Virus record (IMG/VR): IMGVR_UViG_3300018412_000032
Coordinates: 1-31,051 of that record
DNA from: a virus
Direction: 5' to 3' (one strand)
DNA: 31,051 nt
Position numbers and translations under genes: made by a program. Each line of letters starts with the position of its first letter. The stretch's first letter is position 1. This document shows positions 5,799 to 26,303 of the stretch, piece by piece. The notes below the pieces were generated by a model. That model searched no databases. It was not told the origin of the DNA and was given only the letters and a program-made list of their open reading frames with translations.

Positions 5799-6242
5799 CT
5801 ATCGCACACCAGTACTACCAAACCCACCTTCGCCACGATCTGTCTCATCCAAATCCTCCACCACATCCCACTCTGCCTTCTCATACTTCTGCAAGACAGC
5901 CTGAGAAATACGCTCTCCGTCCTTCACGACAAACGGCATTGTTCCACCATTAATAAGGATGACACCAATCTCGCCACGAAAATCGTAATCAACCACTCCC
6001 CCGATAGCATGTACGCCATGCTTCGATGCCAACCCTGAGCGAGATTTGATCTGGACATAATGCCCTTCTGGGATAGCCATCGCAATCCCTGTGGGGATAA
6101 TAGCTTGCTCTTGTGGAGCTAGTACAAAATGACCTTTCATGCTCTTGCTCAGATCAGCGTACAAGTCAAACCCTGCTGCACCTTCTGAACCATATGTCGG
6201 GATGATTGCATTGTCGGTTAGTTTCTTGATCTGTACTTTCAT
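5799..6242 (-). CDS. dut: dUTP diphosphatase (trimeric dUTPase)
   Basis: Hydrolyses dUTP to dUMP, keeping uracil out of DNA and supplying the dTMP precursor. All five dUTPase motifs are present in order: AGFDLYAD (23-30), SRSGLA (68-72), GVVDYDFRG (82-90, with the catalytic Asp at 85), GERISQ (109-114) and the flexible RGEGGFGSTG tail (136-145). At 147 aa the length is normal for the homotrimeric type. ATG with GGAGG upstream; it overlaps the previous gene by ATGA, so translation is coupled. Confidence 0.96.
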   Translation of the reverse strand: MKVQIKKLTDNAIIPTYGSEGAAGFDLYADLSKSMKGHFVLAPQEQAIIPTGIAMAIPEGHYVQIKSRSGLASKHGVHAIGGVVDYDFRGEIGVILINGGTMPFVVKDGERISQAVLQKYEKAEWDVVEDLDETDRGEGGFGSTGVR

Positions 6243-6717: not shown

Positions 6718-6885
6718 CTAATAATTCTCAAATTCTACACGATGATTTTGGTCAAAACTATCCCACACCAGATCATACATGTAGCTTGCATAGCTTTGCC
6801 AATATGGATGTGGTGTAGCTTGGTTTCGATGACACATCCTTGCTAAAGTACATTCATCATTCTTGCACATTGTAATGTCTGCCAC
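6718..6885 (-). CDS. small Cys-rich conserved phage protein, 55 aa
   Basis: Short gene found by reading the gap. A GTG at 6885 has AAGGAG 7 bases upstream and opens a 55-codon frame ending TAG at 6718. The product begins MADITMCKNDECTL and continues with ARMCHRNQA, giving three Cys in a pattern that could bind metal, then an aromatic WQSYASYMYDL stretch. Small proteins with a DITMC...C...C start are common in phages, with unknown role. It lies between the HNH/AP2 gene and the DUF7448-like gene. Confidence 0.75.
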   Translation of the reverse strand: MADITMCKNDECTLARMCHRNQATPHPYWQSYASYMYDLVWDSFDQNHRVEFENY

Positions 6886-6896
6886 AAGGGGTCTCC

Positions 6897-7670
6897 TTAG
6901 GATTTGATGATTTTCTTGTCATAGAGAAACGTGTCATCAGGGTAATCTATATCTAACACCTTATTCGTCAACCCAAGGGCCAGATTACTTCCTGAACTGT
7001 TACCTTCTAACTCTAGTAATGCTTTGTCATACCGGCATACCAGCAGTTCGTCATTCACTGAGTAACCCAAGTGTATATACTTTTTATTATGGCGTATAGC
7101 CGCTTTGAATTTACCAGACTTTTTATCGAAACTCACACCTTTATATGTTGAGCTTGCAGTCCCTCGTAACATTGTTTTGCGTCTGTTATATGATTGCTGT
7201 GCCCTGCTTGCCCATTCACAATTATCTTTAGAGTAATCCCCGTTTACATCCAACCTATCCAGAGTCAGTCCGCCCGAATCTCCCATATCTTCGTAAAAGT
7301 TTTCAAAACTTCTCCATCGAGGGTCGTAAGATATTCCCCTGCCACCGTACCTCTCATATGCTTGGTGGTTTTTATCGTCACACCTTGCTTTCATATTCCT
7401 CCACGCAATATACTCTACGGTTTTGGTCATACCGTGCGTTACACGGACTTCTCTGGTTGCGTTATAGTTTCGAATGTGTTCACGTTGTAAGCACCCGCAA
7501 GACTTTGTTTGCCCTGATGTAAAAGCCTTTTTGTTCATGTCCTTTACAGTCCCACAATCACAAACGACAACTAATATATCCAACCCCTCTTCACTTTTAT
7601 AGTAATCTCTACAAGTTAGCCTATGTTTCTTACTACCTAATAGAGTGACCGGATCTACATAACTACCCAT
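6897..7670 (-). CDS. HNH homing endonuclease with AP2-like domain
   Basis: 257 aa, same architecture as the endonuclease at 3881-4630 but clearly diverged. It has an N-terminal Cys cluster (CDCG near 38-41, SCGCLQ near 57-62), then YERYGGRGI, the LDRLDVNGDYSKDNCEWAS HNH core at about 137-155, and an AP2-like GVSFDKKSGKFKAAIRH segment. GGAG lies 7 bases before the ATG. The start overlaps the end of the phosphoesterase gene and the stop abuts the ribosome-binding site of the 55-aa gene, as expected for a mobile gene slotted into an operon. Confidence 0.88.
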   Translation of the reverse strand: MGSYVDPVTLLGSKKHRLTCRDYYKSEEGLDILVVVCDCGTVKDMNKKAFTSGQTKSCGCLQREHIRNYNATREVRVTHGMTKTVEYIAWRNMKARCDDKNHQAYERYGGRGISYDPRWRSFENFYEDMGDSGGLTLDRLDVNGDYSKDNCEWASRAQQSYNRRKTMLRGTASSTYKGVSFDKKSGKFKAAIRHNKKYIHLGYSVNDELLVCRYDKALLELEGNSSGSNLALGLTNKVLDIDYPDDTFLYDKKIIKS

Positions 7671-8658
7671 ATTTGTTCTCCAGATATTCTATATCAACAA
7701 ACATTGGATTGTAACTACCTTCACTAACATTGTGTTTAACAATGAATCCACGCCAGTGATGATTGCCTTGATGACCTTTGTAACCTTCTTGGTGAAGGTA
7801 GAAAGCCCCTGCCACGATACCCCATTGCTGCTTACCTGATGCTGGTAAGAACCTTGTAGCAATATCCAGTGTCTGCTTGTGGCCCACTGTAAACGACTCA
7901 CCAACTTTATTCAAGATGTTTTGTGCGCTGCCACTATAAGGTTTCCCGCTAAAAGGGTTTGCCATGTAGTGACAATATACAACACCATCAATCGTGACAG
8001 GTTTTAGGAAGTCATATACTTCCCACCCAAACTGTTTGTAACCAAGGCTGTCAATAGATAGGAATCCATGCAATTCTGGGTTAGCGTCTACGTGTCTGTC
8101 AATGCGAGATTCATGATTTCCTAGTGTCAGCACCATGCGTGGGCGATATACTTCCTCACCAGCTTCTGCCTGCTTCTTCTGCAACTTACGTAGAGGTTTC
8201 AACAACACCTCCATACCACGCTTAGCCGCCTCGATATCCTTAGCAACCCGCTTACCCTCTGCTGAACGCTTACCTTTGTCGTAGCTGGACAATGACTCCA
8301 TATCAGCATGATCACCCAAGTGAACAATTACATCAGGACGCTTATCTACAATATACTTACCAAGCAAGGCTAGATGATCTAAGCAAACATCTGGCTTAAC
8401 TTGCGTGTCTGGAATCACTAGGTGTGTACCACATGGTTTAGCGTCACGGACTGTCTTGATATACTGATCAGAATCTGCCTTGAGTTTACTGGTGATGGCT
8501 TGCACCAACCCAGTATCTTCTCGCATTCGAGACAGAATATCATTCACACTGCTTTTCTTAGAGGGTGTGCCCCACAATGCGTGTGAGATTTGTCGGGAGG
8601 ACATCCCTTGCTTGGACATCTTTAGAATCTGTTCCACTGTGTTATCATCGTGCTTCAT
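7663..8658 (-). CDS. calcineurin-like metallophosphoesterase with N-terminal helix-turn-helix
   Basis: 331-aa protein of the two-metal phosphoesterase superfamily. Metal-site motifs are visible: PDTQ (83-86), LGDHAD (114-119), LGNHE (179-183) and later GHKQT and a His-rich HQGNHHWRG. Residues 7-45 look like a helix-turn-helix (SSRQISHALWG). Substrate is unknown; related phage genes are often called DNA repair exonucleases or serine/threonine phosphatases without proof. The location among replication genes favours a nucleic-acid or nucleotide substrate. Its downstream end carries the inserted HNH/AP2 gene. Confidence 0.85.
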   Translation of the reverse strand: MKHDDNTVEQILKMSKQGMSSRQISHALWGTPSKKSSVNDILSRMREDTGLVQAITSKLKADSDQYIKTVRDAKPCGTHLVIPDTQVKPDVCLDHLALLGKYIVDKRPDVIVHLGDHADMESLSSYDKGKRSAEGKRVAKDIEAAKRGMEVLLKPLRKLQKKQAEAGEEVYRPRMVLTLGNHESRIDRHVDANPELHGFLSIDSLGYKQFGWEVYDFLKPVTIDGVVYCHYMANPFSGKPYSGSAQNILNKVGESFTVGHKQTLDIATRFLPASGKQQWGIVAGAFYLHQEGYKGHQGNHHWRGFIVKHNVSEGSYNPMFVDIEYLENKYG

Positions 8659-10551: not shown

Positions 10552-10661
10552 ACGTTTCCTCCGTAATACCAGATAGACATCTTGTAAATGTAATTCGACA
10601 CGATCATGGTGCTGGAAAGTGTGGATATTGTTAGGATGTATGGTAGAAAAAGTGTGTTCAT
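10548..10661 (-). CDS. putative 37-aa membrane peptide
   Basis: Short gene found by reading between the exonuclease and the 199-aa gene. The ATG at 10661 overlaps the exonuclease stop (ATGA), with GGAGG 10 bases upstream, and the stop overlaps the next ATG in the same way. The product is hydrophobic in its first 20 residues (MNTLFLPYILTIS...) and could be a single membrane span. The double four-base overlap is the main reason to believe it is translated. Function unknown. Confidence 0.55.
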   Translation of the reverse strand: MNTLFLPYILTISTLSSTMIVSNYIYKMSIWYYGGNV

Positions 10662-11146
10662 AGATTTAGTTCCTCCAATGTTTTCAGTCCGATGCGCTTC
10701 TTGTAATCAGGCCATATCTCACCCTTCCTGCGCATCATGTAGACAAGACTCAATTGTTCATCGGCTAATTCGACATACGTCTTTGTGACAGTGTTGCCCC
10801 GCCAGTCTTTGTACGTATGTGTATCACCGTAGTGACCTCTGTAAGCATTTAGTATCCGAGTATATATCTCTTGTAGAGAATTGCAACCCTCTAGGTACTT
10901 ACGGGCTGTTTTTTCTCCAACACCTTTATAGTTACCTAGGTCATATTTCTTTCGAATCTCTTGTGGCATGTTAGGCAGACCGGGGATGGAGTCTGTTGGA
11001 TCACCCATTAATGCTTGAACCCCTGTCCAGATGTTTGCCTCAAGCTCAGTCGTACACTTGAATTCGTCTTTAATAAATTGGAAGGTGCACCCGGCTACCC
11101 CGAAAAGGTCTTTATCTATACTTGCAAGACAAACATCCGTATCCAC
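10658..11146 (-). CDS. 5'-3' exonuclease, C-terminal part (after in-frame TGA)
   Basis: 162-aa frame carrying the second half of a FEN/T7 gp6-like exonuclease: the ASIDKDLF metal-site motif near residue 10, the GLPNMP segment with a helix-hairpin-helix-like KGVGEKTARKYL (about 74-85), and the C-terminal arch. It is in the same frame as the N-terminal part at 11153-11692, separated by TGA-TGC-GGT. The GTG at 11146 is the first start codon after the stop, but the ribosome-binding site before it is weak. Without the N-terminal acidic cluster this fragment should not be active alone; readthrough, reassembly of two chains or a nonsense mutation are all possible. Confidence 0.7.
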   Translation of the reverse strand: MDTDVCLASIDKDLFGVAGCTFQFIKDEFKCTTELEANIWTGVQALMGDPTDSIPGLPNMPQEIRKKYDLGNYKGVGEKTARKYLEGCNSLQEIYTRILNAYRGHYGDTHTYKDWRGNTVTKTYVELADEQLSLVYMMRRKGEIWPDYKKRIGLKTLEELNL

Positions 11147-11152
11147 ACCGCA

Positions 11153-11692
11153 TCACTCATAACTCTGGTACAGAGCACATGCGATAGCATCATCACATTC
11201 GCAGTCTGGTGTAACCCTAGCACCATATTTGTCAATCAGATGTTGTCTGGTCGCTTTTAGGTGGATAGGTTTCTCGTTAGATTTACGAGCATGTTTATAC
11301 TCAACCACACTGGCAACATCTTTGCGGAAATTCTTATCCCCGCTGAGGTAATAGATGTATTTACCTGCTTTGACATTCTTTTCAATGAATTTACAGAAGT
11401 TATCGCAGACTTTCTTAGCGTCATCTAATTCGCCATACACCTTGCGACTCTTACGCACCCAATCAGAGGTGTCTATGTTGAAGAATTCCCTAGCGTCCTC
11501 TTGGTGAATCCTACAAGAAGCTGCTGAATCAAACTCTTGGATCAGATCACCATCTTGGTCGTACAATTCATAGATTGTGTTCTCAACTGCTGCTGCTGAA
11601 CGATAGGCAATAATGTCAGCATCTATAACACAATACTTGTATTGCTTGTTTCGCATCTGTTCTTCAGTTGGACATTCTTGACGCTCTTCCAC
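11153..11692 (-). CDS. 5'-3' exonuclease, N-terminal part (ends at in-frame TGA)
   Basis: 179-aa N-terminal half of a T7 gp6/FEN-like exonuclease that would remove RNA primers and degrade host DNA. It contains the first acidic motif IDADIIAYRSA (about 23-33), YYLSGDKNFRKDVA (about 112-125) and the CECDDA metal cluster near 163-168, then stops at TGA (11155-11153). The same frame continues immediately into the DKD half. GTG start at 11692 overlaps the upstream endonuclease stop (TAGTG); an ATG 12 codons in is an alternative. A homing-type gene lies directly upstream. Confidence 0.8.
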   Translation of the reverse strand: MEERQECPTEEQMRNKQYKYCVIDADIIAYRSAAAVENTIYELYDQDGDLIQEFDSAASCRIHQEDAREFFNIDTSDWVRKSRKVYGELDDAKKVCDNFCKFIEKNVKAGKYIYYLSGDKNFRKDVASVVEYKHARKSNEKPIHLKATRQHLIDKYGARVTPDCECDDAIACALYQSYE

Positions 11693-12681
11693 TATTCTAT
11701 TCTCCCGTGTTTCTCAGAAACTCTGTTGAAAGCCTTTGTAAGTAGGTCTAATTCACTAACAGCATAGCACTCAGTACCACCACCAAACCACTCTTTTGGG
11801 ACATACTTCTTTGGTGTGTAGCTATTATGTATAGCTTTCTCCGTATCCCAAGCAACACCTGCTGGTAGTTTAAGCACATCCAGCACCTCAACATTTGCGT
11901 TTGGTATATCGGCTTTTAAATGACGCATTCTGGTTTTCATATCAGTAGTGATACCGACTTTTAAGAAATGTTCGTCATTATTAATGATCTCTAAAAGATA
12001 TAGATTGGAGTATTCATGTGCCAGTGTATAACTCTCCCGTGTTCTTGTACCCAGTGCATCATACCCGCAAAACCTACAACCATGCCCTATAGTCATATGG
12101 GAACTCAAAGCCTGCTCAAACTCCCCATGCCTTTTACAGACAATGCGAAGTCTTGTCCTACCAACACCAAGATACTCTCCCCCAACATAGCCTAGATACT
12201 CGTAGGTGTTGCCGTGCATCTTACGCATCTTTTCCCAGACATCATCTTCTGACAGTCTAGGTGGGCCTATTGGATGATTTTTGGTACATTCTGGACAAGA
12301 CCCGTTTTTAGCACTTAAATGATTTACGGGCTTTGTCTCGAATCTCCCATGTTTTTTGCATACTAGAACTATGGGCGTGTGCTCGTTCAGGTAGTCAACT
12401 TCCTCATACTCAAAGCGATCACCGAACTTATCAACTGATCTCTGGATAAACCAATCTGTGTCGTAAGTCGCCCTCACATGGGCAGTTGACGCACAACGTC
12501 TACAACCTCGTCCAGACTTGTGTTGCCCAGCCAATTGGTTAAACTCCCCGTGTACGGGGCATATAATTGTCACCTTGCTAGTTACTTTAGAGAACTCAAC
12601 TTTAGAGTAATCATAAAATCCTCCATGAACTTTCGTAGATTCCTCTATGAAAGATTCCTGCGTGTAACGTTTTCTTCCCAT
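11692..12681 (-). CDS. putative homing endonuclease, zinc-finger repeats plus T5orf172/GIY-YIG-type domain
   Basis: 329 aa. The first two thirds hold three repeated modules of about 60 residues, each with a CPxHGEF-like or CKxHGxF step followed by a CxxC pair (CRRC, CPEC, CRFC), typical of DNA-binding repeats in phage homing proteins. The C-terminal part has YLLEIINNDEHFLKVGIT followed by TRMRHLKAD, the signature of the GIY-YIG-related T5orf172 domain. It probably cuts near the exonuclease or ssb gene of competing phages. ATG at 12681 chosen; an in-frame GTG at 12687 sits closer to AGGAGG and cannot be excluded. Confidence 0.82.
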   Translation of the reverse strand: MGRKRYTQESFIEESTKVHGGFYDYSKVEFSKVTSKVTIICPVHGEFNQLAGQHKSGRGCRRCASTAHVRATYDTDWFIQRSVDKFGDRFEYEEVDYLNEHTPIVLVCKKHGRFETKPVNHLSAKNGSCPECTKNHPIGPPRLSEDDVWEKMRKMHGNTYEYLGYVGGEYLGVGRTRLRIVCKRHGEFEQALSSHMTIGHGCRFCGYDALGTRTRESYTLAHEYSNLYLLEIINNDEHFLKVGITTDMKTRMRHLKADIPNANVEVLDVLKLPAGVAWDTEKAIHNSYTPKKYVPKEWFGGGTECYAVSELDLLTKAFNRVSEKHGRIE

Positions 12682-12703
12682 TCTCACACCACCTCCTTAG
12701 ACG

Positions 12704-14582: not shown

Positions 14583-15296
14583 TTAGACAAGTTTTCTCTT
14601 GTATCTCTGGATCACATCATACTCCCTGCTGTCTATATATGGTTCCAGCTCCTCCGGTATCTCGTTCGCGTCCAGCCTTATCCATAAATAATTCATATAA
14701 GATTTCTTGTTTCCATTACAAGCAGCATAAATGTTCTGCCACTTCCACTCATGGTTATAATGTAAAGCCTGCTGGACACTTCTCCACACATTGATGATCT
14801 GCCCATCTCTTGTCAACTGCAAGAATATGCTACGCCTTGTGTCAGATACTTTATGCCTCATCTGCTCTTTCAAAGCATCATCTTCCCAGAGTTTGCTTGA
14901 AGCCTTGCTTATAGCATCTCTATGAGCTTGACTGATTTCCCTAGCACGTAACTTCCTTCTTGTTTCCTCGTGAACTATCATCCCTGTTGAGGAGTCCATC
15001 CTGAGGTTATATCCATATTTCCTGTCAGTCGAGTGCAACTTCTCCATCCAGTGAAGCTCCCTCTCAGAGATCAGTCTTTCATCAACACTTTCAAATGTCT
15101 CTAGGAAGATGAGTGCAAAGGACTCCTCATCATATTTCTTAAAGGCGTTGTAAAGGTGTGGATTGCAGTCTTTATGCCTTTCTTCCTTCCTTAGATGACA
15201 TAAGTGATGTATCCACCGCTTCTCTGCGTTTATAGATTTCCCAACGTAAATCTTCCAGTTGTGTGTATTCACAATTCCATAGATAGCTATCGTCAT
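14583..15296 (-). CDS. GIY-YIG homing endonuclease
   Basis: 237 aa. The N-terminal nuclease has IYGIVN (4-9) then KIYVGKS (14-20), the conserved Arg in EKRW, and the metal-binding Glu in ERELHWMEKL (about 79-88). Following segments resemble NUMOD modules: a Lys/Ser-rich repeat near 110-145 and DGQIINVWRSVQQAL near 165-179, used for DNA recognition in I-TevI relatives. The ATG at 15296 overlaps the polymerase TGA by one base with GGAG 8 bases upstream; a longer frame to 15326 lacks such support. It sits directly after the polymerase gene, its probable homing locus. Confidence 0.9.
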   Translation of the reverse strand: MTIAIYGIVNTHNWKIYVGKSINAEKRWIHHLCHLRKEERHKDCNPHLYNAFKKYDEESFALIFLETFESVDERLISERELHWMEKLHSTDRKYGYNLRMDSSTGMIVHEETRRKLRAREISQAHRDAISKASSKLWEDDALKEQMRHKVSDTRRSIFLQLTRDGQIINVWRSVQQALHYNHEWKWQNIYAACNGNKKSYMNYLWIRLDANEIPEELEPYIDSREYDVIQRYKRKLV

Positions 15297-17407
15297 CAGT
15301 GGATCTCCAGCCAGTTGTATCCGCATTGGGCAGTACCTGTAACTAGGACATCTAGGCCAAGACGTTTGGACGCTTCGCCATACATATCTGTCATAAGTTT
15401 CATACCGATTTCCTTTTCTTCCAAAGGAAACTCCGCAGTTAATTCGTCGTGAATTGACAGTATCTGATGACCTTTCAGCTTCATCCGGTTCATCTCAAAG
15501 TTCAGCCAGCAAACTGCCTCCTGTTGTACTTGTGCCTCTGACCCCATAAGGAGGTAGTTCAGAAGTTTGTGTTCAGACATACAGTACACCCAAGTGCCAC
15601 CTGCGACCTCTATAAAACCACCTCTTCCATAAGAGTTCTCCTTGAACTGCTTGCGCAAGCGTTCTTGGAGCCTGCCCATTGCTGGGAGCTTTTCAGTGAA
15701 GCTTTCTTTTATACGCTTTCCATCGGATGCTGTCTTGAATTTAAGTGTCGTAGCAAGCTTCTGATCTCCGGCACCGAACAAATATGCGTACACGCCATTT
15801 TTGCAATACTTCCTTGTGTCGGACAGGAACTTTATAAGATCCTTGTCCTGAGTCTGTCTTGCTTCCTCAACCATGCCCGGATCAATTACGCCAAAAGCAA
15901 TGCCGTTCATAGTGTGTGGGTCTGTCCCTACGTACCTGTGATCGTCATCAAACTCTGTTCCAGTCAACACTGCATTTGTGTATTCAGGGTCTCCCATGAA
16001 ATTTGCAAGCAATCGTAGTTGCGCTGAGTCCATGTCAACAGACACAAGTACCTTGCCCTTGTCTGCTACCCAAGACTTTCGCATCTGCGCTCCATACAGT
16101 GCTGCTGATGAAGGGCAATTTACGATATTTTTTTGGGCACCCCTGCCCGTTGAAGTTGACCACGCCATACATCCAGAACTGATCCTTCCATCAATACGTA
16201 ATTGGTTAATCCAGCCCTTGCTATCGTCCTTTTCGTTCTCAAATGTCCTGCGTCTGTGCGTGTACGTGTTATACTCCGCAATCATCCTACCAAGCTCACC
16301 ATCAATACTATCAAAACTATCCTCAGTCAGCTTTGGTGACTTCGGTATTAGATTACCCCGCTCGTCCCTTTCAAACTTACCCTCAGAATCTTTCTGATAG
16401 TTCCATTGTGTAGGCTTCCACCCGACACTCAACAGGTAGTCTTTGATGACAGCGTGTTGCGACATCGTTGCATCTTCATAGTAGACTTTTGTGTAAGGCC
16501 CTTCGACAAGTGTCCCGCTTGATAGTGGGTCTTGGTCTATATCAAAATGCGAAGCTGTGTGCTTGTCATATTTACCATTTTTTAAGAAGATCCTCGTTGT
16601 TGGTAAGTATGCAGGCTTGGCGACTTTCCCATTCTCGTCATATCTTGTTGAAGGAACCCTCTTAAACACGTCTGGCATCTTAGCTTGTACGTCTTCCCAA
16701 GTACATTTTTGGGATTTCACTTTTAGTTGCTTCGGTAGTAATGGTTCGATCTTAGATCGCAAGTCTTCCAGCAACCCGTCCAGCTCCATTACACAAGCCA
16801 TCATGTGCTCGACATCTCCCTTTGTCCCGTACAACTCCTGCTTGGTGTACCAGTAAGACGTTGCTTGTGTCCTACGAATCTGATTTTTAAAATCCAAGCC
16901 TATCTTGGCTGCTTCGTTGTCAAGAAACTTCAACGTCCTGCTGTTGATCTCTATGTCAACAAGAACACGATTGAGTTTATCTTCGTCCCAATACGTCCAA
17001 TCCTCGATAGGAGGCTTCGGATATTTGAACAGAAGTCCGTAATACTCCAGTCCGTGATTTCCTTTAGTCCCTTTCAGTTTAGGACGGTCATACACTTGGC
17101 ACTTGCTCTGTATAAAAGTGTCCCAGCACTTGCTGAACGGGACAGTGTTTCTATTCCACAGTTCAGGAAAGAACTTCTCAAGCACATGGTAGTCGTAACC
17201 CATGATGTTATGTGCAACGATTTTATCGTAGCTCTTTAAAAATCGTACACCGTCAGCAAGTGTTCCACTGACAGGGAACTCCTTGCATTTTTCGTGGGTG
17301 AATACGTACCTCTCACCTGTTTGCTGGTCTTGTGCTGCAATGACCCAAATTTTTGTTATCTTATCAAGAAGTCCGTTGGCCTCAATATCGAATACAACTG
17401 TTTTCAT
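15296..17407 (-). CDS. DNA polymerase, family A, T7 gp5-like
   Basis: Replicative polymerase, 703 aa, close in length to T7 gp5 (704). The N-terminal 3'-5' proofreading domain opens with FDIEANG (Asp 6, Glu 8). Polymerase motif A is SVDMDSAQLRLLANF; motif B, in the O-helix, reads KNGVYAYLFGAGD and keeps Tyr where T7 has Tyr 526; motif C is SIHDELTAEF near the C-terminus. All catalytic acids are present. GGAG lies 5 bases before the ATG. It is read just after the primase-helicase gene. Whether it needs host thioredoxin, as in T7, cannot be judged by eye. Confidence 0.96.
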   Translation of the reverse strand: MKTVVFDIEANGLLDKITKIWVIAAQDQQTGERYVFTHEKCKEFPVSGTLADGVRFLKSYDKIVAHNIMGYDYHVLEKFFPELWNRNTVPFSKCWDTFIQSKCQVYDRPKLKGTKGNHGLEYYGLLFKYPKPPIEDWTYWDEDKLNRVLVDIEINSRTLKFLDNEAAKIGLDFKNQIRRTQATSYWYTKQELYGTKGDVEHMMACVMELDGLLEDLRSKIEPLLPKQLKVKSQKCTWEDVQAKMPDVFKRVPSTRYDENGKVAKPAYLPTTRIFLKNGKYDKHTASHFDIDQDPLSSGTLVEGPYTKVYYEDATMSQHAVIKDYLLSVGWKPTQWNYQKDSEGKFERDERGNLIPKSPKLTEDSFDSIDGELGRMIAEYNTYTHRRRTFENEKDDSKGWINQLRIDGRISSGCMAWSTSTGRGAQKNIVNCPSSAALYGAQMRKSWVADKGKVLVSVDMDSAQLRLLANFMGDPEYTNAVLTGTEFDDDHRYVGTDPHTMNGIAFGVIDPGMVEEARQTQDKDLIKFLSDTRKYCKNGVYAYLFGAGDQKLATTLKFKTASDGKRIKESFTEKLPAMGRLQERLRKQFKENSYGRGGFIEVAGGTWVYCMSEHKLLNYLLMGSEAQVQQEAVCWLNFEMNRMKLKGHQILSIHDELTAEFPLEEKEIGMKLMTDMYGEASKRLGLDVLVTGTAQCGYNWLEIH

Positions 17408-23542: not shown

Positions 23543-23699
23543 ACCATCCCTACACCAAGACGCTCGCATCTACATCCCAAAAGAACGTCTAGACATGTTG
23601 ACAGCATACGAGCAATACGTAACAATGAACACACATCTTGAACGGGGCATGTTCAAGAATCTAGCCAAGAAGATTAGGGGGAATAATCATGTGGGCTAA
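23535..23699 (+). CDS. hypothetical protein, 54 aa
   Basis: Short gene overlapping both neighbours. ATG at 23535 has GAGG 9 bases upstream and the frame ends TAA at 23697-23699. The product begins MNKPSLHQDARIYIPKERL and ends in a basic helix (FKNLAKKIRGNNHVG). The IYIPKERLDML pattern recalls small DNA-binding or antitoxin-like ribbon-helix proteins, but this is weak. Confidence 0.6.
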   Translation: MNKPSLHQDARIYIPKERLDMLTAYEQYVTMNTHLERGMFKNLAKKIRGNNHVG

Positions 23700-23946
23700 G
23701 ACAACACTAGACAAATCCATGAAGCCGATTCTGGCTCCGGCTCGAAACAATCTGGCACGTAGCTTGCGCCAGTATCGTAAGCTATGTCAAAAGGGTGATC
23801 GGTATAGTTATGAAGGAGCTATCCAGTTTGGAATCTGTCTAGGTGAGCAGAGTCAAGTGATGATGGCTGAACGTCTTGCAAGGGATGTACGTCTTAAGAC
23901 CATGTACGAGATGTATGAGGCGAAGGAAAAGGGTAAGTTTATGTGA
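23689..23946 (+). CDS. hypothetical basic protein, 85 aa
   Basis: Arg/Lys-rich helical protein (NNLARSLRQYRKLCQKGDR near 20-38; MMAERLARDVRLKTMYEMY near 58-76). GGGGG lies 6-7 bases before the ATG. Last gene before the tnpB element and apparently complete. The charge suggests nucleic-acid or membrane contact; no family recognised. Confidence 0.72.
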   Translation: MWAKTTLDKSMKPILAPARNNLARSLRQYRKLCQKGDRYSYEGAIQFGICLGEQSQVMMAERLARDVRLKTMYEMYEAKEKGKFM

Positions 23947-24030
23947 GAAAGGATTGTCTAGCCAAGGATGGCTTACACAAGATAATCCTTTTAAGGGAAA
24001 AACAGAAAATTATAAAGGGGTTCCAACACC

Positions 24031-25254
24031 ATGAGTGAAATTCTAAAAGCATACAAATTCAGGATCTACCCTGATCAAGAACAACAAACCAAACTTAATC
24101 AGACGTTTGGGTGCGTTCGTGTGCTTTGGAATCACCTAGTTGCCAATTTCAACGCTTATGGCACAGAAGAATACCAAGAGAAATACTCTGAAAAGGAGAT
24201 AAAAGCTAATCCTGATCTGTTCTTTCTAAAAGACGTGTCTGCTGCTTCATTACAACAAAAACGAAGGGATTTCAACGAAACCAAGTCTCAATTCTTCAAC
24301 CAAAAAAGAAAAGTGAAGCTCGGTAGAATGAAGTTCAAAAAGAAGTCCAACAAGCAATCTTACCGCCTTCCTAATCAAAAATTTAAACTGGATCGAGACA
24401 ACTCTTTGATTCAGTTAGAGAAGATTGGCAAGGTGAAGGTTGTTTTAGACCGTAAAATTGAAGGAGATTTTAGATCAGTCACCGTCTCTAAAACACCTAC
24501 TAACAAATACTATGTTTCAATTCTGGTCAAGACCAATGTTAGCCCACTACCCTCAACAGGAAATATGGTTGGTATTGATGTTGGCTTGAAAGATCTGTTT
24601 GTTTTATCAAACGGGCTTGTGGCTAACAACCCGCGCTGGTTTAGAAAGAACCAATCTAAACTAGCTAAGGCTCAAAAACACCTATCAAGGAAGAAGCGAG
24701 GCAGTTCTCGTTATGAGAAACAAAGACTTAAAGTAGCTAGAATCCATGAGAAGATAGCTAACCAACGCTCTTACTTCACCCACAACATGAGTAGTTCTCT
24801 TATTAAAAACTTTGATGTTATTGTGACAGAAGACTTGAACATCGCTGGATTGAAGAAAACCAATCTAGGAAAGTCTGTATCAGATGCTGGTTGGTCTGAG
24901 TTTATTAGACAACTTGAATACAAGTCAAGTTGGTATGGTAGAACATTTGTTAAGATTGATAGGTTCTATCCTAGTTCTCAAATTTGTTCTTCTTGTGGAC
25001 ATAAGGATGGGAAGAAATCTCTTGATATCAGAGAATGGACATGTTCTAACTGTGGAACCGCACATGATAGAGATTTGAATGCAGCCGACAACATCCTTGT
25101 TAAAGGCTATTCCGATTTAACAGGTCTTTCAATTAATGATTCATCGGCTGAGTTGGTCGATTACAAACGTGGAGAGGATATAAGTCTTTTTGATGATTCT
25201 CATCATTTAGCAGCCTCGTTGAAGCGTCTAGATAAATCTATAGATTTATCGTAA
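24031..25254 (+). CDS. tnpB: TnpB, RNA-guided nuclease of IS200/IS605 elements
   Basis: 407 aa, normal length for TnpB. The N-terminal helix-turn-helix-like start KAYKFRIYPD and a basic wedge region precede the RuvC core: Asp 183 in GIDVGLKD, Glu 267 in VTEDLN, and Asp 348 in HDRDLNAADN. The zinc finger is intact (Cys 319, 322, 338, 341). All catalytic residues are therefore present. TnpB is guided by an omega RNA made from the element's 3' end and cuts double-stranded DNA beside a target motif, which helps the element persist. AAGGGG lies about 9 bases before the ATG. In a phage it could behave like a homing nuclease. The last 20 codons overlap the right-end palindrome. Confidence 0.95.
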   Translation: MSEILKAYKFRIYPDQEQQTKLNQTFGCVRVLWNHLVANFNAYGTEEYQEKYSEKEIKANPDLFFLKDVSAASLQQKRRDFNETKSQFFNQKRKVKLGRMKFKKKSNKQSYRLPNQKFKLDRDNSLIQLEKIGKVKVVLDRKIEGDFRSVTVSKTPTNKYYVSILVKTNVSPLPSTGNMVGIDVGLKDLFVLSNGLVANNPRWFRKNQSKLAKAQKHLSRKKRGSSRYEKQRLKVARIHEKIANQRSYFTHNMSSSLIKNFDVIVTEDLNIAGLKKTNLGKSVSDAGWSEFIRQLEYKSSWYGRTFVKIDRFYPSSQICSSCGHKDGKKSLDIREWTCSNCGTAHDRDLNAADNILVKGYSDLTGLSINDSSAELVDYKRGEDISLFDDSHHLAASLKRLDKSIDLS

Positions 25255-26012: not shown

Positions 26013-26303
26013 ATGAAACACATCACTAAACAAGAAGCTCTAACCAAAATCAACTCCAGCAACGGACGTGTCTTTGGTGTCGTATTCGAGAAGGCTGACG
26101 GAACAATGCGTAAGATGTCTGGACGTATTGATGTGACCAAACACCTCAAAGGAGGGGTGGCTACATACAAGGGCAAGGATGGATCTAAGCAGAATATCGG
26201 CCTGTATGAGATGGCTGGCAAGAAGAGTGGGTATAAGTGTTTTAGTCTGGATCGTCTGAAAGAGATTCATATTGATAATGAAGAATATGTGGTGGAGGGC
26301 TGA
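26013..26303 (+). CDS. conserved small phage protein, possible SH3-like barrel, 96 aa
   Basis: Beta-rich pattern: RVFGVVFEKADGTMRKMSGR (about 19-38), then a GGVATYKGKDG loop, then CFSLDRLKEIHIDNEEYVV. Phage proteins with a V-F-x-K-x-D-G-x-x-R-x-M start are common and I recall them as SH3 barrel-like; function unknown. AGGAG lies 8 bases before the ATG. Preceded by leader repeat copy 2. Confidence 0.72.
   Translation: MKHITKQEALTKINSSNGRVFGVVFEKADGTMRKMSGRIDVTKHLKGGVATYKGKDGSKQNIGLYEMAGKKSGYKCFSLDRLKEIHIDNEEYVVEG

Follow-up and report, generated by a model that had tools for sequence, protein, structure and literature searches.

Does an in-frame TGA in the exonuclease gene of an uncultured phage mark a broken gene, a recoded gene, two separate genes or an error in the sequence? 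We analyzed the complete IMG/VR virus record that carries this codon (the window, 31,051 bases, from an environmental sample), and consider it probable that the exonuclease gene of this lineage acquired a nonsense codon recently, through substitution of one base. The gene and its parts are located as follows.

10658..11692, minus strand: interrupted 5'-3' exonuclease gene (phrog_107, T7 gp6-like, FEN superfamily), assigned from the translation, the PHROG matches of both halves and intact relatives
11156..11692, minus strand: N-terminal part, 179 codons, with D24/D26 and E165/D168 (numbering of the relative)
11153..11155 (read 11155-11153), minus strand: in-frame TGA stop; an Arg codon stands at the aligned position in relatives G001 and G002
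10658..11152, minus strand: C-terminal part, 164 codons plus stop, with the IDKD and GDxxD motifs and the 5_3_exonuc C-terminal region

The minus-strand frame from 11692 to 10658 comprises 345 codons with a single internal TGA and a terminal TGA at 10660-10658, and its translation reads CECDDAIACALYQSYE up to the internal stop and CGVDTDVCLASIDKD after it. This bears out the first-pass annotation, which had placed a TGA at 11155-11153 in frame within the exonuclease. The interrupted frame is not a product of chance, since the single open frame of the relatives passes through the same place. In a PHROG profile search, the phrog_107 profile was matched over both nuclease halves, in adjoining ranges (111-233 for the N-terminal part and 245-367 for the C-terminal part) and with E-values of 1.4e-25 and 1.4e-20, respectively, compared with 1.8e-50 for an intact relative. 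As in other phrog_107 exonucleases, the halves match in order and D24, D26, E165, D168, D195, D231 and D234 are conserved; the homologues that we opened have one frame each, whereas the window gene differs by one internal TGA.

Alignment with nine phage homologues, with residues numbered as in the intact relative P0001, identified two groups of nearly invariant residues: D24, D26, E165 and D168 precede the stop, and K194, D195, D231 and D234 follow it. The metal-binding acid clusters are therefore found on opposite sides of the stop, as had been proposed, and E165/D168 are parted from D193/D195. In the relatives these acids are carried by one polypeptide, while in the window D24/D26/E165/D168 and D193/D195/D231/D234 are not. 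In the homologues, the segment that joins the ExDD and IDKD motifs varies in length, and because the stop lies within this segment, many inserted residues should be tolerated there. An AlphaFold model of the relative was set aside as evidence: its mean pLDDT was 61, values for residues 163-215 near the stop were below 50, and its top Foldseek match, the T5 flap endonuclease, was weak (E = 0.014).

The two relatives, G001 (IMG/VR 3300036944_000329, 54,010 bp) and G002 (3300043120_000014, 24,009 bp), come from different samples and are 100% identical to each other across 24 kb. Their exonuclease proteins share ~93% identity with that of the window and the genes have the same neighbours (the SSB gene, a slot for homing-endonuclease-like genes, and the downstream genes), but they differ in having an Arg codon at the stop and another homing-endonuclease-like gene upstream. 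Both carry one open frame of 345 codons, with a single base changed in the window at the stop position, and both align codon for codon across the gene, in agreement with the earlier reading that neither a frameshift nor missing sequence is involved. The alignment with homologues that the first-pass annotation had proposed as a check thus shows that Arg replaces the stop in these relatives, which do not share the TGA. A pattern scan of IMG/VR that allowed any base at the changed position returned neither TGA nor other alleles beyond G001 and G002, leaving the window as the only contig that carries the exonuclease TGA, and a scan of a genome-contig collection found no relative.

Further relatives were reached through the downstream neighbour gene. 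L083 (342 aa) and L085 have a diverged, intact exonuclease at the same genomic place, while that of L084 is cut off by the contig end; an internal TGA had been flagged for two more relatives, which in L083 proved to be the terminal stop of the gene. Homologues encoded as two genes, which the first-pass annotation had raised as grounds against its reading, were looked for, and no naturally split homologue was found among the cultured-phage homologues opened or the distant relatives with the gene at the same place, all of which have a single frame. In a tblastn search of cultured phages, each homologue was in one piece among the matches listed (60 of 1373 records). In Rheinheimera Barba and PGN6866 phages, what looked like splits were annotation overlaps with a single exonuclease CDS, and the case of Klebsiella K54lambda1.1.1 was set aside, as the annotation of this record shows many incomplete pseudogenes all along the stretch.

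The age of the stop can be approached from the divergence around it, part of which lies in the following tract.

11016..11218, minus strand: low-divergence tract common to the window and G001/G002, containing the stop

Between the window and G001, dN/dS is 0.046 for the N-terminal part and 0.044 for the C-terminal part, and the C-terminal part has 11 nonsynonymous differences where ~13.7 would be expected at the N-terminal rate. Equal values on both sides give no sign of long decay, and imply that the stop is very recent, that full-length protein continues to be made and used, or that the stop is not in the phage. Around the stop, dS falls to 0.087, compared with ~0.8 elsewhere, and the tract holds 5 differences in 187 bases, with none of 2000 permutations within the gene as extreme. 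Because about a dozen such tracts recur in the window, this one can be attributed to ordinary mosaic exchange, and a special role for it, as a homing-endonuclease target or a nucleotide-level signal, was rejected. Had this exchange been recent, the stop inside the tract would be young and would have arisen afterwards.

The first-pass annotation had left four options: a nonsense mutation, readthrough, two reassembling chains and a sequencing error. Since the relatives carry an Arg codon, a nonsense mutation or a sequencing or consensus error fits, whereas a conserved readthrough signal or a natural two-gene enzyme does not. TGA is moreover a normal stop in this phage, because at homologous gene ends it is either shared between the window and G001 or swapped with TAA or TAG (355-774, 5799-6242, 15296-17407 and 26013-26303). 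Of 50 predicted frames in the window, 19 end in TGA, 28 in TAA and 3 in TAG; without the interrupted N-terminal part, 18 ordinary TGA ends remain, which together with the swaps rule out whole-genome recoding of TGA, already considered unlikely at first sight. It is improbable that UGA readthrough is functional here, with a small but sufficient fraction of ribosomes making the full-length enzyme, perhaps as dosage control. Such readthrough would agree with the equal dN/dS before and after the stop and with the variable surroundings of the stop, which may accept many residues, and in-frame stops that leave constraint intact have been described as widespread among the genes of bacteria (PMC7918605). 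Programmed readthrough or selenocysteine insertion would be recognized by conservation of the stop, but the relatives have a sense codon there. RNA downstream of the TGA folds slightly worse than shuffled sequence (z = +1.3), which, with the lack of any Rfam match at the gathering score in the window, discounts a SECIS or other recoding structure as a stimulating signal; no tRNA was found in the window either. In E. coli, the leaky context is a UGA followed by C, and here the base directly after UGA is U. We give still less credit to the proposal that tolerated UGA misreading makes the exonuclease, with a young stop in a variable loop switching the dosage of a replication nuclease. Reassembly of an active nuclease from the N-terminal part (residues 1-179) and a C-terminal part started at the following codon seems very improbable.

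11144..11146, minus strand: GTG two codons past the stop, the sole start-like codon before the DKD motif, with background-level ribosome-binding potential

The position of this GTG was correctly noted in the first-pass annotation. In favour of two chains, the break falls where the sequence between the acid clusters is variable, and the short distance from the stop to the GTG makes termination-reinitiation conceivable. The restart suggested there gains little credit from a ribosome-binding energy at background: -2.4 kcal/mol, a value equalled or bettered by 47% of random sites and weaker than that of 41 of 45 window genes; the GTG start of the exonuclease itself reaches -7.4. In the intact relatives, moreover, the codon lies inside the gene and encodes Val, and, as described above, the homologues opened include no naturally split gene.

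A more serious competitor, though one we hold to be clearly the less likely, is a consensus or base-call error, in which the TGA would have arisen in assembly or through low coverage, the sampled phage population having a sense codon. The window is a single contig from a metagenome-derived collection, the TGA is one isolated substitution with constraint unchanged past it, and there is a second isolated nonsense difference.

6718..6720, minus strand: second premature stop, TAG (read 6720-6718), in a small gene (~6886-6688), with a Trp codon in G001/G002

This TAG takes away ~10 residues and is milder than the exonuclease TGA. Against an error, this small gene, also affected by a substitution, is the only other broken one: no further frame breaks or premature stops were found in the remaining main-strand genes shared with G001. 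Only ~5% of random substitutions yield stops, so that two stops made by error would imply dozens more errors. Selection should act against a nonsense allele in a replication gene, but the contig has this one as its consensus, and an error, dispensability or useful readthrough becomes more likely for that reason.

Under a recent nonsense substitution, a point mutation would have turned a sense codon in the variable stretch into a stop, and translation would mostly end after residue 179. The released N-terminal part would lack half of the metal-binding acids and little or none of the C-terminal part would be made, so that exonuclease activity would be lost or strongly reduced. The phage might simply have carried a defective allele at the time, or might be sustained by the 5' nuclease of host DNA polymerase I, by co-infecting intact relatives, or by UGA misreading, a low background of which may supply some enzyme. 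Host DNA polymerase I can reportedly take the place of the phage 5' nuclease in T4, where one of the two suffices (Hobbs and Nossal 1996, cited in PMC3012046), and by analogy loss of the exonuclease need not be lethal to the phage. Amber and opal alleles of phage replication genes and in-frame stops in bacteria (PMC7918605) have the same trait, a single-base stop in an otherwise constrained gene; the window allele differs in belonging to an uncultured phage contig known from sequence alone. The finding most likely reflects an ordinary point mutation, or a base-call error, and not a new mode of stop reading.

The gene is surrounded by replication genes, with a PolA-type polymerase, a primase-helicase and a gp2.5-like SSB nearby. 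The exonuclease is indeed T7 gp6-like (phrog_107), as the first-pass annotation had it, but the phage as a whole is not of the T7 type, given that the G001 contig is 54 kb with tail-fibre genes and that the window has ribonucleotide reductase, PolA-type replication and many homing-endonuclease genes. One of these lies directly upstream of the exonuclease.

11692..12687, minus strand: free-standing homing-endonuclease-like gene (DUF723 plus T5orf172/GIY-YIG-type), which G001 does not have at this place

Its TAG overlaps the GTG start of the exonuclease. Between the SSB and exonuclease genes, the window (11692-12687) and G001 (23591-24193) have different free-standing homing-endonuclease-like genes, that of G001 belonging to a repeated family with copies at two further places in G001, and L083 (1579-1641) has none; judging from gene order, this slot is a putative insertion hotspot. 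Immediately upstream of each of the two broken genes lies an inserted homing-endonuclease-like gene (11692-12687 and 6897-7670), which may be a coincidence (n = 2). A GIY-YIG endonuclease-like gene beside the DNA polymerase shows 100% protein identity between the window (14583-15326) and L032 (4800-5540), while the L032 polymerase is only 76% identical to that of the window, a contrast that points to recent transfer of the endonuclease gene. The exonuclease gene also looks like a cassette that has been exchanged at a constant position, since between L083 (1641-2669) and the window (10658-11692) the neighbours are 81-94% identical but the exonuclease only ~35%. A TnpB-like transposase-associated gene (phrog_506) sits amid small phage genes at 24031-25254 of the window. 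In the phosphoesterase gene (7663-8658 in the window; 4345-5049 in L083), the first 54 residues are 89-94% conserved in G001 and L083 and the rest is unmatched; the protein is predicted to be a fixed N-terminal segment joined to varying downstream domains.

For annotation, the exonuclease should be recorded as one interrupted gene, and not as two genes or a recoded gene; beyond annotation the consequence is small. If the stop is real and the phage grows, this lineage would be a natural test of whether a phage 5'-3' exonuclease is dispensable where host DNA polymerase I is present.
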